From assembly GCA_017521195.1 (NCBI GenBank), contig JAFXGP010000085.1, positions 1 through 44,680 on the forward strand: DNA of 44,680 nucleotides. Reading direction: 5' to 3'. This DNA is from Lachnospiraceae bacterium. GTDB lineage: Bacteria; Bacillota; Clostridia; Lachnospirales; Lachnospiraceae. The notes beneath the pieces were generated by a model. That model did no database searches, was not told the origin of the DNA, and was given only the letters and a program-made list of their open reading frames with translations. Both the position numbers and the translations under genes were made by a program. Each line of letters opens with the position of its first letter. Positions within the stretch are counted from its first letter, which is position 1. Of the stretch, positions 14,717 to 26,961 are shown one piece after another.

Positions 14717-15781
14717 TTATACTTTACCGTATTTAAAATCCAGTGCTTCTTTTGCGGTATTGGCCAAATACCGTATTACTTCTGCCGGATATTTTCCTAC
14801 CGCTGTCTCTCCCGTTACCATAACTGCTTTAGCCCCATGATAAACAGCATGAAAAATATCAGATACTTCTGCTCTGGTTGGTACCGGATTTTGTTCCATA
14901 CTTGACAACATTTGAGTTACTACCATGTAAGGTTTTCCGTATTTTTTGCAACTGTTTTCTATTTTTTTCTGTATCACCGGAAGTTCCCAAAGAGGCATGT
15001 CATTACCCAAATCACCTCTGGCAATCACAATCAAATCCGCTTCCGGCAAAATATTATCCAGATTATCCACTCCGATACGGTTTTCTATTTTAGCAAAAAT
15101 CTGAATATGTTCTGCACTTTCTTCCCACAATATTTTGCGTACCTTTTTCAAATCCTCTCCTGAGAAAACAAAAGGTTGCATTAATGCCGTTACCCCATAT
15201 TCCTTAGCCATACGAATATTATGAAGGTCATGCTCTGTAAGTATCGGCATCTCTACATTTACGTCCACAATTTTAACACTCTTATGAGGTTTTAAAATTC
15301 CCCCTATAAGAACTTCTGCCTTGGCATACTTTTTGGTTACTCCCTGAATCCGAACACGGATTTTTCCGTCATCCAACAAAACTTCCATTCCGGAATTGAT
15401 AACCTGCATTACTGCCGGAGGTAGAGGAACTTCTTTCTCTATAGGAAGTTTTTCATCCTCATTGCTTATACCGTCCTCTGCATGAACTACCTTTTCAACA
15501 CTGACAAAACAGATTTCTTCTCCTTGGTTTAAAGTTATTTCATCCATATCTCCGACACGAAGTTCCGGACCCTGCATATCAATCAAAATCTGTGGAATCA
15601 CCTTTTGCTGTTTTGCTGCCAACCTATAATTCTCAATATACTCTTTGCTTTTTTCCAAAGTCGTATGAGACAAATTCAGACGCATGCCGGTCATACCGGC
15701 TTTTATCATTTCCTTCAAGACTTCTCTTGACTTACATGAAGGTCCAAAAGTACCATAGACTTGTGTTTTAGTTTCTTCCAT
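14717..15781 (-). CDS. Short pyruvate kinase-like protein lacking the C-terminal domain
   Basis: A 354-residue protein with the pyruvate kinase barrel and B domain but no C-terminal allosteric domain (usual enzymes are about 470-585 residues). Seen are the substrate/cation region MRLNLSHT (33-40), QGPELR (about 69-74), the catalytic Lys in IFAKIENRIG, the metal region ARGDLGND and MVTGETAVGKYP near the end. The ARGDLG motif is normally followed by VE; here it is ND. The conversion of phosphoenolpyruvate and ADP to pyruvate and ATP is plausible, but lack of the regulatory domain and the ND change make the activity uncertain. It lies 50 bases after the ABC-F gene, apparently in one transcript. 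Confidence 0.75.
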   Translation of the reverse strand: MEETKTQVYGTFGPSCKSREVLKEMIKAGMTGMRLNLSHTTLEKSKEYIENYRLAAKQQKVIPQILIDMQGPELRVGDMDEITLNQGEEICFVSVEKVVHAEDGISNEDEKLPIEKEVPLPPAVMQVINSGMEVLLDDGKIRVRIQGVTKKYAKAEVLIGGILKPHKSVKIVDVNVEMPILTEHDLHNIRMAKEYGVTALMQPFVFSGEDLKKVRKILWEESAEHIQIFAKIENRIGVDNLDNILPEADLIVIARGDLGNDMPLWELPVIQKKIENSCKKYGKPYMVVTQMLSSMEQNPVPTRAEVSDIFHAVYHGAKAVMVTGETAVGKYPAEVIRYLANTAKEALDFKYGKV

Positions 15782-19148: not shown

Positions 19149-20006
19149 TTATTTTTTATCAAACAAAGCTCTTCTTTCTGTAGAATGACGCATCATCTTC
19201 CGCATCCCTTCAATGTCCTCGTTTTCAAGCATCAACTTTAACTCATTGAATTTATTTATGAACATATCCATCTGCTCCAATAAAGCTCCTTTGTTAGCCA
19301 CAAACAACTCGCTCCACATAAGATCATTAATACGGGCGATACGGGTAAGGTCCCGAAATGAATCTCCGGTAAATTTTTCCATGTTTTCTTTGTCATTACA
19401 GGTCATCAATGTAACCGCAATGCAATGGGTCAACTGTGACAGAAAACCTATCATTTCATCATGTTCTTCCGGCGACAATGTGGTAACATTGGAAAATCCC
19501 AGAAGTCTTCCCAGTTCCATACATGTTCTGATAGCCTCAGGAGTATTTTTTTCTGTTGGTGTTACGATGTAATTGGCTCCTACAAACATTTTGTCAGTGC
19601 TGTTTTCCACACCGGAAACTTCGCGTCCTGCCATTGGGTGAGCCGCAATAAATTCCACATCTTCACGAAGCATATCCTGTATCTTATATACAATACTTCC
19701 CTTTACACCTGTAACATCAGTAATTAATGCTCCGCTTTTCAGGAGTCCCTGATTCTGCTCAATCCATTCCACAAATATGTGCGGATAGAGTGCAAAAATC
19801 ACAAGGTCAGCTTCCCCTATTATCCTTTCATCAAGGTGCACGGATCCTTCATCTATCAAGCCTTCTTTAAGTGCATAATCTATGGAACTTTGCTCCTTGG
19901 TAATAGCACTTATATGAAATCCAAATCGTTTCAACACTTTGGCATAACTACCACCTAACAAACCAAGCCCTATAATTAATATTTTTTTGCTTACATCAAC
20001 TATCAT
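19149..20006 (-). CDS. tyrA: Prephenate dehydrogenase
   Basis: Oxidative decarboxylation of prephenate to 4-hydroxyphenylpyruvate, the tyrosine branch. The 285-residue protein has the Rossmann motif IIGLGLLGGSYAK (about 11-23), the TDVTGVKGSIV segment (about 100-110) and the catalytic-histidine region AAHPMAGREVSGVENS (about 121-136), followed by the helical dimer domain. There is no fused ACT domain, so feedback regulation must be elsewhere. It is the last gene of an aroF-pheA-tyrA operon, 60 bases after pheA. The arogenate dehydrogenase alternative cannot be excluded by eye. Confidence 0.93.
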   Translation of the reverse strand: MIVDVSKKILIIGLGLLGGSYAKVLKRFGFHISAITKEQSSIDYALKEGLIDEGSVHLDERIIGEADLVIFALYPHIFVEWIEQNQGLLKSGALITDVTGVKGSIVYKIQDMLREDVEFIAAHPMAGREVSGVENSTDKMFVGANYIVTPTEKNTPEAIRTCMELGRLLGFSNVTTLSPEEHDEMIGFLSQLTHCIAVTLMTCNDKENMEKFTGDSFRDLTRIARINDLMWSELFVANKGALLEQMDMFINKFNELKLMLENEDIEGMRKMMRHSTERRALFDKK

Positions 20007-20066: not shown

Positions 20067-21155
20067 TTAAATCTCAACATGCGAACCAAAAGTTCCTACT
20101 ACTTTCAATTCATCACACACTTTACTCAATTCATCCAACATTTGTTTACCTTTGTCAGTATCTGTGGAACCATCAATTTCAATATAAAAATAATACTGCC
20201 AAGAATGCTTTTTCAAAGGTCTGCTTCTGAGAGCTGTCATATTGAAACCATATTTTCCGATAATACTGATTGCCGTCGCAAGAGAGCCTGCCTCATGCTT
20301 AACAGTAAACATCAAGACTGAATTGAAAAGTGAAGGAGAACTTGCCCGTACTCTTGAAAGTACAGCAAAACGTGTAGTATTCTCACCACTTTTATTTATG
20401 TTCATTTCCAAAACTTTAAGACCATATATCTCTGCTGTTTCCACACTTGCGATGGCACCTATGGATTTATCCTTTGCTTCAGCCACATTTCTGGCAGCAA
20501 AAGCAGTATTGTTTGCTTCCACGGTTTCCAGCTGTTTTCTCTCGATATAATCATGGCACTGACTAAGTGCCTGAGGATGACTGATTACTTTCTTAATATC
20601 ATCAACTGTTGCACCTTCAACCCCAAGAAGATTCTGATGAATTTCAAGTTCATAAATTCCATTGATAAAAAGAGAGCCTGAAAAGATAAGGTCCATTGTC
20701 TGTCCTACTTCACCTGCATAACTGTTCTCAATAGGAAGTACCACTGCATCGTTTTCCCCATTCACAACAGAATCATAAGCTTCCTTAAAATCTCTACAGG
20801 AAATCCTGTTACTTTCCGGAAAAATTCGTCCTGCAGCTATATGAGCAAATGCTCCTTCCACACCACTGTATGCGATTCTAAGACCACTTTGCAGACGATA
20901 TTGGTACGCGCGTGAAACCGACATCGTATTTTTAATGTAGTCAATATAATACTCTTTTAAAACCTCGTCTTTGATAAGTTCTACATTTTTTTCTATCACA
21001 GCATTTTCTCTTGCCTGATCCAGAATCGGTAATCCATACTTTTTCTTGTGCTGATAAACCATTTCAGCTGCTCTCATTCTCTTTACAAAGAGTTCCGCCA
21101 TCTCCCGGTCAACTTCATTTATAATTTTTCTTGCTTCTTCTAACATGTTTTCCAT
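20067..21155 (-). CDS. pheA: Bifunctional chorismate mutase / prephenate dehydratase
   Basis: Converts chorismate through prephenate to phenylpyruvate, the phenylalanine branch. Three domains are seen in 362 residues: AroQ-type helical chorismate mutase (1-90, with KRMRAAEMVYQHKK), prephenate dehydratase (about 108-285, with ISHPQALSQC and NTTRFAVLSR), and a C-terminal ACT domain (about 287-362) for phenylalanine feedback. In the ACT domain the usual ESRP allosteric motif reads RSRP (ALRSRPLKK), a change at a residue linked to Phe binding in other PheA proteins; whether this group is still inhibited is open. AAAGGG precedes the ATG. It lies between aroF and tyrA and should share their attenuated promoter. 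Confidence 0.94.
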   Translation of the reverse strand: MENMLEEARKIINEVDREMAELFVKRMRAAEMVYQHKKKYGLPILDQARENAVIEKNVELIKDEVLKEYYIDYIKNTMSVSRAYQYRLQSGLRIAYSGVEGAFAHIAAGRIFPESNRISCRDFKEAYDSVVNGENDAVVLPIENSYAGEVGQTMDLIFSGSLFINGIYELEIHQNLLGVEGATVDDIKKVISHPQALSQCHDYIERKQLETVEANNTAFAARNVAEAKDKSIGAIASVETAEIYGLKVLEMNINKSGENTTRFAVLSRVRASSPSLFNSVLMFTVKHEAGSLATAISIIGKYGFNMTALRSRPLKKHSWQYYFYIEIDGSTDTDKGKQMLDELSKVCDELKVVGTFGSHVEI

Positions 21156-21197: not shown

Positions 21198-22226
21198 TTA
21201 AAGTTTATCAGCAATATCCAAAATTAATCTCTCTGTTTTCTCCCAACCAAGGCAAGGATCTGTAATAGATTTACCATATACATGTTCTCCGGCTCCTTGG
21301 GCACCATCCTCCAGATAACTTTCTATCATAAGTCCTTTAACCAATCTCTTGATATCTTCATTTTGACCGCGGCTATGCACAATATCCTTTGCAATTCGTA
21401 TCTGTTCCAAATATTGTTTTCCTGAGTTATTATGATTGGTATCTACAATTACAGAAGCATTGGTCAGGTTTGATTTTTCATAAAGTTCCTTAACTCTCAA
21501 AAGTTCTTCATAATGGTAATTGGAAACACTTCTTCCCGTATAATCCACATATCCGCGAAGAATTGCATGAGCATAAGGATTTCCTTCGCTTGTTACTTCC
21601 CATCCACGATAAATGAATGTATGGCTCGACTGAGCTGCCAAAATAGAGTTCATCATAACTCCAAGATCTCCTCCGGTAGGATTCTTCATACCTACAGGAG
21701 TCCCGATTCCACTGGCGGTAAGTCTATGCTGCTGGTTTTCTACAGAACGGGCACCTACAGCAACATAAGATAATAAATCGGAAAGATAACGATAATTTTC
21801 CGGATACAGCATTTCATCCGCACAAGTAAAATCATAATCCCTTAAAGCTGATAAATGTAAATCGCGGATAGCTACAATTCCTTTATACATATCCGGTTTT
21901 GCTTCCGGATCCGGCTGATGCAACATTCCCTTATATCCCTGACCTGTAGTTCTTGGTTTATTGGTATAGATTCTTGGAATAATAATAATTTTATCTGATA
22001 CCTGTTCTTCTATTTTACGAAGTCTGGAAATATACTCAAGAACCGGTTCTCTATGATCAGCAGAGCAAGGTCCGATGATTAAAATAAATTTATCGGAATT
22101 ACCTTCAAAGACAGCGCGAATCTCTTCATCACGCTTATTTTTTACCTGCTCCATACGTTCTGTTAACGGAAATTCTTTTTTTACCTCCTTCGGGATTGGA
22201 AGCTTTCTGTGGAAATTCATTTGCAT
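21198..22226 (-). CDS. aroF: 3-deoxy-7-phosphoheptulonate synthase, type I alpha (AroF/G/H-like)
   Basis: Condenses phosphoenolpyruvate and erythrose 4-phosphate, the first step of the shikimate pathway. The 342-residue length and the motifs IGPCSADH (about 51-58), PRIYTNKPRTTGQGYKG (about 83-99), TPVGMKNPTGG and VDTNHNNSGK are those of the E. coli AroF/AroG group, with metal ligands in the Cys (GPCSADH), His and Asp motifs. The start at 22226 has AGAGG 9 bases upstream. It is the first structural gene behind a Phe/Tyr leader peptide and terminator, so transcription is expected to respond to charged tRNA(Phe) and tRNA(Tyr). Allosteric class (Phe or Tyr) was not determined. Confidence 0.95.
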   Translation of the reverse strand: MQMNFHRKLPIPKEVKKEFPLTERMEQVKNKRDEEIRAVFEGNSDKFILIIGPCSADHREPVLEYISRLRKIEEQVSDKIIIIPRIYTNKPRTTGQGYKGMLHQPDPEAKPDMYKGIVAIRDLHLSALRDYDFTCADEMLYPENYRYLSDLLSYVAVGARSVENQQHRLTASGIGTPVGMKNPTGGDLGVMMNSILAAQSSHTFIYRGWEVTSEGNPYAHAILRGYVDYTGRSVSNYHYEELLRVKELYEKSNLTNASVIVDTNHNNSGKQYLEQIRIAKDIVHSRGQNEDIKRLVKGLMIESYLEDGAQGAGEHVYGKSITDPCLGWEKTERLILDIADKL

Positions 22227-22254: not shown

Positions 22255-22309
22255 CAAAATAAAAAGTTCGCTTTCATAGCTACTCTTTAAAGCACAATGA
22301 AAACGAACT
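22255..22309 (-). terminator. Attenuator terminator before aroF
   Basis: On the minus strand AGTTCGTTTTCAT pairs with ATGAAAGCGAACT over 13 bp (one G-U) around a 19-base loop, followed by TTTTTATTTT. It ends about 30 bases before the aroF ATG and lies within the operon leader, so it is a regulated terminator. Confidence 0.9.
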
Positions 22310-22384
22310 GTCCGTCTTGTGTTATTTTATCCCTTAGTATAATATCTATACCTTGGTTGTCACAAAAAGCGGGCAGCTCTTCTT
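22300..22384 (-). promoter_or_regulatory. Predicted antiterminator pairing segments
   Basis: AAGAAGAGCTGCCCG (22370-22384), directly after the Phe/Tyr codons, is complementary to CGGACAGTTCGTTTT (22300-22314) at 13 of 15 positions with two G-U pairs. The second segment covers 10 bases of the terminator's left arm, so the two helices exclude each other. Position of the control codons fits ribosome-stalling control. Confidence 0.7.
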
Positions 22385-22417
22385 AAAATAATAAAAGTAA
22401 AACTTCTGATTAAACAT
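22346..22417 (-). CDS. Leader peptide for the aromatic operon, Phe/Tyr-rich
   Basis: A 23-codon ORF too short for ordinary gene calling. It has AAGGAGG 8 bases upstream of ATG and starts about 30 bases after the -10 box. Residues 6-11 are FYFYYF, and Phe also occurs at positions 2 and 18; eight of 23 residues are Phe or Tyr. It ends in TAG 37 bases before the terminator. The run of control codons in front of alternative antiterminator/terminator helices is the arrangement of classic his, phe and trp attenuators. The peptide itself need have no function. The downstream operon makes phenylalanine and tyrosine precursors, which fits the sensed amino acids. Confidence 0.85.
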   Translation of the reverse strand: MFNQKFYFYYFKKSCPLFVTTKV

Positions 22418-22450
22418 ACAAACTGCCTCCTTTTTGATTCGTTGTTTTGG

Positions 22451-22479
22451 ATTATAGCACGTTAATGTGGCAAAGTCAA
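22451..22479 (-). promoter_or_regulatory. Sigma-A promoter of the aromatic operon
   Basis: TTGACT (22474-22479) and a perfect TATAAT (22451-22456) are separated by exactly 17 bases on the minus strand. It is the best promoter in the window and starts the transcript just upstream of the leader peptide. Confidence 0.92.
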
Positions 22480-22540
22480 CCGGTCCTATTACGAAATTAG
22501 AAATTATTTTTCGACAATTATCAGAAAACTCGTCGGTGAT

Positions 22541-24081: not shown

Positions 24082-25806
24082 TCAATCCATCTCTAGCCCC
24101 ATTACTAATTGCGATATAATGTCACTTATTTCTGCACAAATATCTTCTGCTCTAAAAGTTGTCAATAATATGTTAAGTGTACATTTCACTCCATATTCTT
24201 TATTCATCCACTGATTTATCTTTTTTAACAACTTTTTACCACTAACCAATGCTAGTTTATTATCAAGTCCCTTCCACTTTTTTTTCATAAATTCTCTAGC
24301 TTCCTTATTTGCAGTGCTATGATCAATTTTTCTGTACTTCACGATATGTTCAGCATATTGGTCAAACACATCATCACTAAACGTATCCACCAAATCTTCC
24401 AAATTTTTAAGGAACTCTTCATATCCACTTGTGCGAACGGGTAACAACCTAAAAAGTACTTTAGGCTCAATAATATAATTTTCTATTTCTTTTCGTTCCC
24501 AAATATGTAACATTAATTTGTTTTTTTTCGCCATTCGCATTTTTTCTTCTAACAAATCTGCCGGAAAATAATCCCTATCTAGAATGCACATACACGAGAT
24601 ACTCCCCCGTGTTTCCTCATAAAACAATTTAGAAGCTCCAAATGCTTCCTGTAAATTATTAAATCCGCCTAATGATACATGCGGAAGATTATTAATTGAT
24701 TCTGCCAACTTGGGATATAATATATCTGCATATTTAGCTAATATCTTTAAATCATCCCCCTCTACAAAAATACATTTTCTTGCATTTCCTATTCTTGTCA
24801 ATGACAAATTATTTATTGAACCAATATTGTCAACAATTTTTTGAACTGCTTTCATATCTGTCGCATAAGACATTTGACGTTTTCTTTTATCTATCGTGAT
24901 AATATTTTTAGACTCAACTTCCGCAATTATTTCTACTGAGTGAGTTGCTATAATTGTCTGTGGATATCTCTTTTGTATTATTCTTATTAGTTTGCGCTGT
25001 AAATCAGGGTGCATATATACATCCGGTTCATCTAAAATAATTGTAGTACAGCCTTTCGTTCTGCTTAAAAACCACATTATTTGTAACCACATTTGCAAGC
25101 CACTTCCCATCAAACCCAATTCAGCTAAAAATCGTGAATCACTAACGAATAGTTTTATAAATTCGTCCTCAGCAAAATTATATATAATCTCTTTAATTTT
25201 AAGACCAGGCCACGTTCTTTCTGACAAGTCTACAAACTCTTTCCAATAATCTTCTTTATATTGATAAATTTCATTTCTAAAATGTCTAGAAAACAAGTAA
25301 CTGTCTTTATCACTTTCCACTGTATCAGAAGCAAGACGCTTTTCATTTTCCTTAATTAATCCCAATTGCGGCATAATTTCAACTGATTCAATTTCACATA
25401 ATTCCGCTTTACTTTTACTTGTAATATTTCTGCCATCAATATCATAAACACAAGCATACGCATAAGATGAATTCAAATAAATAATTATTTTATTTCCACT
25501 ATCTAAAAACACCGTGATTTTTGCGATTTTGTCTTCATACAGATAAACTATTCCTCTTAAATCAATTTTTATTTTTTCTACATCAAGTTTAAATCCTTTG
25601 ATTTTTAAGCCTGTACCAAACTCCCCCGGTAATTCTTTATAAATTGCTTTTGTTGATTTTCGTATTGCCAACGCAACTAGTCTTAATGCCTCAATCAAAG
25701 AAGACTTTCCTGCATTATTTTTTCCAACAAACACTGCTATTTCTTTAAGTTTAATTTGTGTTTTTTCAAAACATCTATAGTTTTCTAATTGTATAATATC
25801 TATCAC
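24082..25806 (-). CDS. OLD-family AAA ATPase with TOPRIM nuclease domain
   Basis: A 574-residue protein with an ABC/SMC-like ATPase head and a C-terminal TOPRIM domain. Seen are Walker A GKNNAGKSS (28-36), a signature-like GLMGSGLQ (231-238), Walker B TIILDEPD (255-262) and the H-loop THS (288-290). The TOPRIM residues are Glu349 in FVEGDD and the acidic pair in ILDRDYF (Asp410, Asp412). This layout is that of overcoming-lysogenisation-defect (OLD) nucleases, including anti-phage types such as GajA. No UvrD-like GajB partner is present; instead a Fic gene ends 15 bases upstream on the same strand. The roughly 130-residue C-terminal tail is helical and unassigned. Nuclease activity is inferred. 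Confidence 0.85.
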   Translation of the reverse strand: MIDIIQLENYRCFEKTQIKLKEIAVFVGKNNAGKSSLIEALRLVALAIRKSTKAIYKELPGEFGTGLKIKGFKLDVEKIKIDLRGIVYLYEDKIAKITVFLDSGNKIIIYLNSSYAYACVYDIDGRNITSKSKAELCEIESVEIMPQLGLIKENEKRLASDTVESDKDSYLFSRHFRNEIYQYKEDYWKEFVDLSERTWPGLKIKEIIYNFAEDEFIKLFVSDSRFLAELGLMGSGLQMWLQIMWFLSRTKGCTTIILDEPDVYMHPDLQRKLIRIIQKRYPQTIIATHSVEIIAEVESKNIITIDKRKRQMSYATDMKAVQKIVDNIGSINNLSLTRIGNARKCIFVEGDDLKILAKYADILYPKLAESINNLPHVSLGGFNNLQEAFGASKLFYEETRGSISCMCILDRDYFPADLLEEKMRMAKKNKLMLHIWERKEIENYIIEPKVLFRLLPVRTSGYEEFLKNLEDLVDTFSDDVFDQYAEHIVKYRKIDHSTANKEAREFMKKKWKGLDNKLALVSGKKLLKKINQWMNKEYGVKCTLNILLTTFRAEDICAEISDIISQLVMGLEMD

Positions 25807-25821
25807 TGTTCTCTTCCTCTC

Positions 25822-26961
25822 TTACGTATCCTTCCTCAATATCCCTAAATACTCCTCATACGCAAACACCCTATTTCTCGCCGCATTGGTTGTTTCCTGC
25901 AAAATATCAAGTTCCACAAGCTTCTTCACAGCCGTAGCTACTGTATTATAACTAATATCTAATTCCTTAGCAGTTCTCTTAATATCAATAATAGGATACT
26001 GCTCGATATAATCAAACACAGCTCTTAAATTATCTTTACTTCTAGTCGTTTTCGGAAGTTTTTCTATATTTGTATCATGCAACGTAGAAAGCTGACGAAT
26101 TGCTTCCAAAGAATCCGATGCTGCTTTACTCACTGCCTCCAAAAAGAATCTTATCCATTGTTCAAAGTTTCCACTTCTTCTAACTTCACTAATTCGATCA
26201 TAATATTCTATCTGGTTCTTTTTCAAAAAATACGATATATAAATGACCGGTTTAGCAAGCAATCCCTGCTCCATCAGATAAAGGAGTATCAAAAGTCTTC
26301 CGATTCTTCCGTTGCCGTCCAAAAACGGATGTATTGTTTCAAACTGATAATGAATCAATGCAACTCTAATCAATGGATCATAATCCGTATTCTCATTAAT
26401 ATATTTTTCCAAATCAGACATTGCGTTTTGCATATCTTCTACATTTGGCGGAATATATCTTGCATCTTTTAATGAACAGTTGGCAGGCCCAATCCAATTC
26501 TGAGAATGTCTGAATTCTCCCGGAGTTTTATCCTGTCCGCGAACATTCTCCATTAATACTTCATGTATTTCTCTTATTAATCTGCAACACAAAGGTAATC
26601 TTTCCAGACGTTTCAATGCATACTGTGTTGCTTTCACATAATTAATAACATCTGAAACGTCAAGATTTGCGTTTGCTTCCACCTCTGGATCTAATACATC
26701 ATCAAGAGTACACTGTGTGCCTTCTATTTGTGAGGAAATTAATGCTTCTTTTCTAACATACATTGATATAAACAAATCCGCATTAGAAATTAACTGTGAT
26801 GCAGTATCAAGTTTTACAAGTTGTTTATTGGCATCTATTAAAAGTTTTACAATCTCTTCATCCATTTCAATTTCAGGCATAGGTGGTAGTGGATTTGGTT
26901 TAAAAGATTGATAAGTAGCCTCTCCTGTTAAATTGTCAACATATATTCCTGCTCGATTCAT
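25822..26961 (-). CDS. Fic family protein with C-terminal winged helix
   Basis: A 379-residue Fic (AMP-transferase-type) protein. The N-terminal Fic_N region carries the class II inhibitory helix SSQIEG (76-81), whose Glu normally blocks ATP binding. The active-site motif HPFLDGNGRIGR is complete at 211-222, so AMPylation chemistry should be possible. Residues about 310-379 form a helix-turn-helix/winged-helix domain that could bind DNA. It is the first gene of a two-gene operon with the OLD-like nuclease, with a TATAAT promoter bracketed by four repeat copies. GAGGTG lies 8 bases before ATG. Target protein is unknown; an autoregulatory role for the winged helix is inferred. Confidence 0.9.
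   Translation of the reverse strand: MNRAGIYVDNLTGEATYQSFKPNPLPPMPEIEMDEEIVKLLIDANKQLVKLDTASQLISNADLFISMYVRKEALISSQIEGTQCTLDDVLDPEVEANANLDVSDVINYVKATQYALKRLERLPLCCRLIREIHEVLMENVRGQDKTPGEFRHSQNWIGPANCSLKDARYIPPNVEDMQNAMSDLEKYINENTDYDPLIRVALIHYQFETIHPFLDGNGRIGRLLILLYLMEQGLLAKPVIYISYFLKKNQIEYYDRISEVRRSGNFEQWIRFFLEAVSKAASDSLEAIRQLSTLHDTNIEKLPKTTRSKDNLRAVFDYIEQYPIIDIKRTAKELDISYNTVATAVKKLVELDILQETTNAARNRVFAYEEYLGILRKDT

Follow-up and report, generated by a model that had tools for sequence, protein, structure and literature searches.

The aroF-pheA-tyrA operon in the window, by which we mean the whole 44,680-nucleotide stretch of Lachnospiraceae DNA analysed here, is very probably controlled by a ribosome-mediated transcription attenuator that would tie transcription of the operon to the charging of tRNA-Phe and perhaps of tRNA-Tyr. 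The parts of this element, their conservation among relatives and the co-variation of three helices are read from the DNA itself and from its comparison with other genomes. The element belongs to a known class of regulators, our literature search found no earlier report for this lineage and these genes, and its first pairing arm and its tandem forms are unusual. Amino-acid genes of Firmicutes are usually assigned to T-boxes, and with no Rfam family matching this element, what is probably a Phe/Tyr regulon has gone without a label in gut Clostridia.

All parts of the element lie on the minus strand. A promoter (22451..22479; TTGACT-17-TATAAT with TG before the -10, 11/12 consensus matches) is followed by strand 1 (22420..22436), which the fold and an arm-swap test assign as the Shine-Dalgarno arm of a helix denoted 1:2; its pieces are CAAAAAG (22436-22430) and GGCAGUUU (22427-22420), with AAGGAGG at 22432-22426. 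The leader peptide ORF (MFNQKFYFYYFKKSCPLFVTTKV, 23 codons, 22346..22417), identified as an open frame and through its relatives, carries the control codons Phe-Tyr-Phe-Tyr-Tyr-Phe (FYFYYF) at codons 6-11 (22385..22402). Strand 2 (22363..22379) and strand 3 (22305..22314) were both assigned from covariation and the swap test; strand 2 pairs through 22379-22370 with strand 3 to give the antiterminator, and through 22379-22372 and 22369-22363 with strand 1. Strand 3 shares bases with the 5' arm of an intrinsic terminator hairpin (22265..22309, a 13-bp pairing of 22309-22297 with 22277-22265, from fold and covariation) that runs into a T-rich tail visible in the sequence (22256..22265). As predicted helices, antiterminator 2:3 and terminator 3:4 are mutually exclusive. 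The three genes span 22226 down to 19149: aroF (21198..22226) encodes a 342-aa 3-deoxy-7-phosphoheptulonate (DAHP) synthase matching TIGR00034 above cut-off; pheA (20067..21155) a 362-aa chorismate mutase/prephenate dehydratase with Pfam CM_2 and PDT above cut-off and NCBIfam models below theirs; and tyrA (19149..20006) a 285-aa putative prephenate dehydrogenase hit by many models for that enzyme, below their cut-offs.

The preliminary description of this region had named the promoter, the AAGGAGG, the 23-codon leader and its FYFYYF run, and all of these were confirmed on the minus strand. Its antiterminator, for which we counted 13/15 pairs by hand between 22384-22370 and 22314-22300, and its 13-bp terminator with T tail likewise stood up to hand count and folding; its account of two helices was right about both of them and missed a third, helix 1:2, in which the leader's own Shine-Dalgarno region (22436-22420) pairs with 22379-22363. 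The leader RNA folded at -52.1 kcal/mol (z -3.90), a value as low being reached by 0/200 shuffles, and the opposite (plus) strand, folded as a control, was unremarkable (z -0.28). A simple consensus terminator scan that allowed loops of 3-8 did not list the leader terminator. At the Rfam gathering score neither a T-box nor any other family was found in the window, and at E up to 10 the leader had no T-box (RF00230) and no amino-acid leader family, which we take to be the Phe, Trp, His, Leu and Thr leaders; the seven leader matches at that threshold, weak PyrG_leader and patAB among them, all fell under their gathering scores. The absence of a T-box, claimed at the outset, held at both thresholds.

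Relatives of aroF were drawn from the best 80 of a longer list from genome contigs, from 200 genomes of the family (30 loci) and from the genus (a match in 6/7 genomes). Upstream scans of these relatives yielded 23 leaders of one type at 21 loci, L002 and L006 having two each, and the leader type is common to the window and 20 other aroF loci. All 23 aligned leaders, which were chosen by such an ORF, have a translatable leader ORF with a ribosome-binding site, that of L006b beginning with GTG, and their peptides have a common pattern, as in MTMNKFFYFFYYFVKGCPLSVISKV. Phe or Tyr accounts for 161/165 run codons in these leaders, and all four codons are used (TTT 77, TAT 42, TAC 29, TTC 13); because runs were trimmed at their first and last aromatic codons, the run ends are aromatic by construction. 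Conservation of the Phe/Tyr run among homologues was a test that the preliminary description had itself proposed, and the comparison of leaders supports its reading of the region as a ribosome-mediated attenuator. In 22/23 leaders the last aromatic codon falls two codons ahead of a [GDS]-C motif that opens strand 2, the Gly-Cys-Pro behind the run being the coding of strand 2. The distance from the run to strand 2 is nearly fixed, and the 23-leader alignment shows little conservation and a variable length between strands 2 and 3. Trp occurs in 0/23 leaders; among 21 leaders found later, L180 and L204b have one Trp each, outside the run.

To evaluate the helices we used a MAFFT alignment of the 23 leaders and 500 shuffles, and observed compensatory changes in both the antiterminator and the terminator, the second test named beforehand. 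Helix 2:3 was paired in 90.9% of cells, with changes on both sides in 4/10 pairs, and was matched by 0/500 shuffles on four of five measures and by 35/500 on the number of pair types; one of its ten positions is mismatched in 20/23 rows. Helix 3:4 was paired in 98.1% of cells with 4/7 pairs doubly changed, and 0/500 shuffles did as well on any of the five measures. Sliding the partner by 1-3 columns lowered pairing to 20-48%. The window's own row departs from the others at linked places, with A for G in strand 2 (column 73) and U for C in strand 3 (column 145), as well as A for G in strand 4 (column 184) and the opposing U in strand 1; all three helices are therefore kept through linked substitutions in strands 1-4. 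In a second alignment of 45 matches to covariance model R2, the structure of which does not contain 2:3, helix 2:3 was paired in 84.6% of cells with 14 double-change cells versus 5.2 in shuffles (0/500), its number of doubly changed pairs being unexceptional (54/500 shuffles). Helices 1:2 and 3:4 together, to which this alignment was fitted, gave 40 double-change cells versus 21.8 (0/500), and 1:2 alone was paired in 65.6% of cells.

We also compared the mean pairing energy of each leader's own arms with that of arms swapped in from other leaders, using 5000 permutations and 44/45 leaders (L205, with its 5' end cut, was omitted). Swapped arms were as good in 0/5000 permutations for each of 1:2, 2:3 and 3:4. 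The control pairings 1:3 (4157/5000) and 2:4 (1358/5000), through which alone the test controls for relatedness, exhibited no own-arm preference. Among the 30 aroF-type leaders alone the preference for 2:3 was weaker (56/5000).

From these parts we infer a start site, ribosome stalling, steric exclusion of helix 1:2, read-through and the part that either amino acid plays. RNA polymerase would start near 22444, and a ribosome would then begin the leader peptide. When charged tRNA-Phe (or tRNA-Tyr) is scarce, the ribosome would halt in the run at codons 6-11, where, lying between strands 1 and 2, it would keep helix 1:2 open, leaving strand 2 to take strand 3 so that no terminator forms and the operon is transcribed. 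With ample charging the ribosome would cross strand 2 and reach the stop codon; strand 2 would be covered or re-paired with strand 1, strand 3 would be free, and the 3:4 terminator would stop transcription. Should no ribosome arrive in time, the transcript would fold 1:2, hide its own ribosome-binding site and terminate.

We modelled this switch under a steric rule, by which no helix may close round a ribosome, in 42 leaders (L013 and L183, which have no run by the script's rule, stood outside the scoring). A ribosome at the run start gave a 2:3 probability above 0.5 in 40/42 leaders, compared with 16/42 without a ribosome. The exceptions, L184 (0.00) and L188 (0.49), have arms that the model did not align, and each folds its own terminator plus an alternative. 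Without a ribosome, 1:2 exceeded 0.4 in only 21/42 leaders and 2:3 often won instead; once a ribosome stood at the stop codon, 1:2 and 3:4 averaged probabilities of 0.42 and 0.53, respectively. A plain footprint model of the window leader, which forbids only pairing under a 27-nt ribosome, let 1:2 close round the ribosome with the A site at codons 6-9 (0.98-0.99, with 2:3 at 0.00-0.01) and gave 2:3 for codons 1-4 only. This model fails to reproduce the switch, and the steric rule is therefore needed, steric exclusion being an assumption. Even for codons 1-4, at which 2:3 can form, the full-length terminator kept an equilibrium probability of 0.54-0.96. Given that the terminator wins or draws at equilibrium, the choice must be kinetic, as it is in known attenuators.

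We considered whether the region might be an ordinary promoter and terminator with a short ORF arising by chance. When the 400 bases before aroF were shuffled, 5/5000 sequences did contain an ORF of 12-35 codons that follows a Shine-Dalgarno site and has five or more Phe/Tyr in seven codons; the same kind of ORF is present in 20/21 leader loci (all but L013) and in 0/90 other aroF upstream regions, of which 283-400 bases were examined. Homologues with compensatory changes and the same kinds of downstream genes argue strongly against chance, which we regard as wildly improbable. A riboswitch-like leader, in which a small molecule or protein selects 2:3 or 3:4 and the peptide ORF is incidental, would fit the switch helices by themselves equally well, and no Rfam family covers the leader; this reading nevertheless appears very unlikely, as the run is kept at the amino-acid level (161/165 codons), strand 2 stays at its nearly fixed distance from that run, and the interval between strands 2 and 3, poorly conserved and varied in length, is unlike an aptamer.

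A reading closer to our own keeps the same attenuator and has it sense Phe alone, with the Tyr codons as passengers and Tyr starvation without effect on termination. We consider this a genuine possibility, if one we would not bet on. Phe is the commoner residue, with 90 of the 165 run codons versus 71 for Tyr; it occupies position -3 before the Cys motif in 22/23 leaders; and both L013, with its broken run (FTFIF), and L183 dispense with Tyr. The T-boxes on sister aroF genes appear by eye to bear the Phe codon UUC, and the C. glutamicum aroR leader (Phe-Tyr-Phe, before aroF) answers only to Phe according to the available part of its description (PMC11802643). Against a sensor of Phe alone, Tyr is kept at 2-4 codons in 22/23 leaders and is missing from just 1/21 further leaders (L183), tyrA is part of the operon, and the leaders of transporter genes are rich in Tyr (FFYYYYYYF, FYFYYYYF), which such a sensor would not need. 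The attenuator itself, whichever of the two amino acids it answers to, is common to both readings.

Closer inspection of strand 1 relates it to the promoter. In 20/23 leaders a promoter-like site with 17-bp spacing has its -10 ending 28-41 bases before the leader ATG. A bare promoter score of at least 9/12 was obtained for 21 leaders including L002b and was reached by 307/920 shuffles, and, the bare score being so common in shuffles, the argument depends on the constant spacing and position; the 9/12 site of L002b was set aside from the promoter count, and L011 likewise scores 9. In all 20 leaders with their own promoter the 1:2 duplex lies at or below -13.3 kcal/mol; L002b, L006b and L018 are without a strong one (-3.6 to -4.6 kcal/mol). 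L002b and L006b are each the downstream member of a tandem array, and the leader of L018 (3282-3457) has its ATG one base past the stop of a degV gene (L018:2438-3301) and no clear promoter of its own. The 1:2 duplex of L083 was no better than shuffles (47/200). Two promoter-borne leaders, L009 and L019, did not form 1:2 (0.0) when the full nascent RNA was folded without a ribosome, and reached 0.80 and 0.58, respectively, with a ribosome at the stop codon.

Two attenuators stand in tandem before a single aroF in three places (L002:683-1037, L006:3077-3452 and L204:1320-1684, minus strand); tandem attenuators with leader ORFs have reportedly been seen for Salmonella mgtCBR. In all three arrays the downstream copy is without the Shine-Dalgarno (1:2) arm, and in L204 the 1:2 probability is 0.76 in the upstream copy and 0.0 in the downstream one. 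We tentatively suggest, as a rather doubtful extension, that these leaders form a distinct attenuator family of Clostridia in which the role of protector arm falls to the leader's own Shine-Dalgarno region, so that the gate would ask both whether a ribosome has loaded in time and whether Phe/Tyr-tRNAs are charged, and in which the arm goes with promoter autonomy. If so, tandem copies would be two gates in series with opposite default states, and the family would be one that swaps places with the T-box before one and the same gene.

Two covariance models, R1 (23 leaders) and R2 (26 leaders), were run on genomes, with stricter filters in searches over more than 40 genomes, so that weak matches were lost there. 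The family search matched 5/397 genomes at E <=0.01, with a leader in G000, G125, G175 and G189 and not in G115; the order search matched 3/295 and the phylum search 2/378 (E <=0.001), only G000 being real in either. The 28 genomes behind L002-L030 gave 19 matches, of which L145 and L146 did not belong to the training set. The class search matched 10/391 genomes, seven with a leader, one of which (G796) is the L019 genome, the match L179 being the L019 element; and the family of G674 gave 16/246 genomes, fourteen with a leader and three of these in the training set. Every match at E 3e-5 or better has a Phe/Tyr-rich leader (Phe only in L183), and among weaker matches only L124 has such a leader before a fitting gene. 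Judged by these matches, the element has a patchy distribution: the class search found it in five families of Clostridia, and it was not seen in the genomes sampled outside that class. Matches L125, L127, L185, L186, L187 and L203 were rejected as chance, having no aromatic leader. Also rejected were L202 (an ORF MAFYCFTTGCPPF... without Shine-Dalgarno, E 0.007), L207 (a partial match with an 8-codon ORF ending KFFY) and L126 (an FVFYFFFFY ORF within an opposite-strand gene).

The matches, which were found regardless of genes, mostly precede genes of the aromatic pathway. Behind the new leaders we observed aroF (L180, L191, L193, L195, L196, L204) and pheA (L182, L183, L192, L198, L199, L200, L201, and with CM_2 plus PDT L124 and L146), a CM_2 chorismate mutase fused to 3-dehydroquinate synthase (AroB) with a Tyr-rich leader ahead (L145:189-1472, minus strand), and a PLP-dependent aminotransferase (L181, NF005305 above cut-off). 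In L184 and L188 the leaders MKRRFFYYYYYYFSPAVECCAANI and MKNRFYFYYYYFRDAAKRCTADTL, with runs FFYYYYYYF and FYFYYYYF, precede genes for ABC substrate-binding proteins; the L184 protein scores 305 bits against TrpX, under the cut-off of 390, and that of L188 matches ABC_sub_bind. One genome, G1048, has two leaders, one before pheA and one before a TrpX-like gene. Such leaders yield substrate predictions, here that the TrpX-like ABC importer behind FFYYYYYYF (L184, L188) would carry Tyr/Phe rather than Trp. An exception to genes of the sensed pathway is the acyl-CoA ligase of L194/L205, whose leader peptide is identical in L194, L205 and L197; because this gene has its own promoter-like site about 400 bases on, the leader with its terminator looks orphaned. 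L026 was not counted as a member, having a separate Phe-rich leader without Tyr and with its own terminator: at about 2083-2276 the leader MNNKLNFNNNFAFSFSFFGFTAEGVNLLCKNV and a 13-bp terminator stand before aroF, and Phe attenuation may have arisen independently there.

In a T-box the tRNA binds the RNA directly and there is no leader peptide. Such an element, absent from the window's aroF leader, precedes the same gene in L005, L014 and L022 (Rfam gathering score), the AroF proteins of which are 85-89% identical to that of the window; the likely specifier on these aroF genes, read by eye, is UUC, a Phe codon. A Phe/Tyr leader persists in the L005 genome, ahead of a chorismate-mutase/AroB fusion, and the window's own genome has a T-box ahead of pheS (L111:1501-1922); a Clostridiales-1 RNA match was also seen at L111:1754-1922. 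Depending on the species, AroF orthologues with 85-91% identity are preceded by an attenuator or by a T-box, which makes them a natural experiment on why one tRNA-charging sensor is exchanged for another.

The AroF tree (43 rows) is poorly resolved, with 5/40 inner branches starred; on it the leader label needs 8 changes versus 14.6 in shuffles, and the three T-box rows need 3, the same as shuffles. The window's AroF is 83-89% identical to its counterparts in 20 genomes, with which its genome shares RecN at just 34-52% identity. Among genus mates, G203 has RecN at 80% and AroF at 87%, and G201 RecN at 70% and AroF at 61%. AroF identity of at least 80% with RecN below 45% occurs in 170/253 genome pairs. 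This discordance between the two proteins argues for exchange of aroF, with unequal loss of old copies as an alternative. Third codon positions approach saturation, with identities of 0.35-0.54 in 12 comparisons and 0.50 in a same-genus pair, and, AroF being slow, any transfer would therefore be old. Misbinning of the contig was considered and rejected, its RecN being nearest to the genus (62-80% in six other genus genomes).

Among known systems, the helix design of E. coli pheL-pheA has strand 1 in the codon region, whereas strand 1 of the window is the leader's own ribosome-binding site; the window also differs in its mixed Phe/Tyr run and its aroF-headed operon. The two are alike in a leader peptide with end-product codons and in being ribosome-mediated, the consulted portion of the source describing for pheL-pheA a Phe leader peptide through which tRNA-Phe charging controls the CM-PDT gene (PMC11802643). 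Likened by description, Corynebacterium glutamicum aroR-aroF has a Phe/Tyr (Phe-Tyr-Phe) leader before a DAHP synthase operon and a ribosome stalling model; unlike the window it belongs to the Actinobacteria, and the same partial source reports a response to Phe and not to Tyr (PMC11802643). The uORFC-13-1 motif, also compared by description, resembles the window in an ORF with Phe codons before aroF: the accessible part of its report gives an upstream ORF with at least one Phe codon, a possible promoter and terminator before Acholeplasma aroF and a proposal of attenuation, but places the motif in Acholeplasma and environmental sequence only (PMC8632094). The statement in the preliminary description that Firmicutes mostly use T-boxes is fair, and the contrast holds within this group (three aroF relatives, pheS), except that ribosome-mediated leaders have, as far as excerpts of the reports go, already been published for Firmicutes: His attenuators in the Bacillus cereus group, Eubacteriales and Erysipelotrichales (PMC9413887) and branched-chain attenuators in S. 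aureus and L. monocytogenes (PMC6123439). Like the window's leader, these are found in places where others use T-boxes, but they serve other amino acids and other genes. Further surveys, consulted in excerpt, cover attenuation in Actinobacteria (PMC1262725) and T-boxes (PMC2494555). Our literature search, which had most subscription papers outside its reach, recognised no earlier description of a Phe/Tyr leader in Clostridia. Elsewhere in the window, 14717-15781 (minus strand) encodes a 354-aa protein with a pyruvate kinase barrel domain as its sole above-cut-off match, and 24082-26961 (minus strand) encodes an AAA_15-type ATPase beside a Fic-domain protein.
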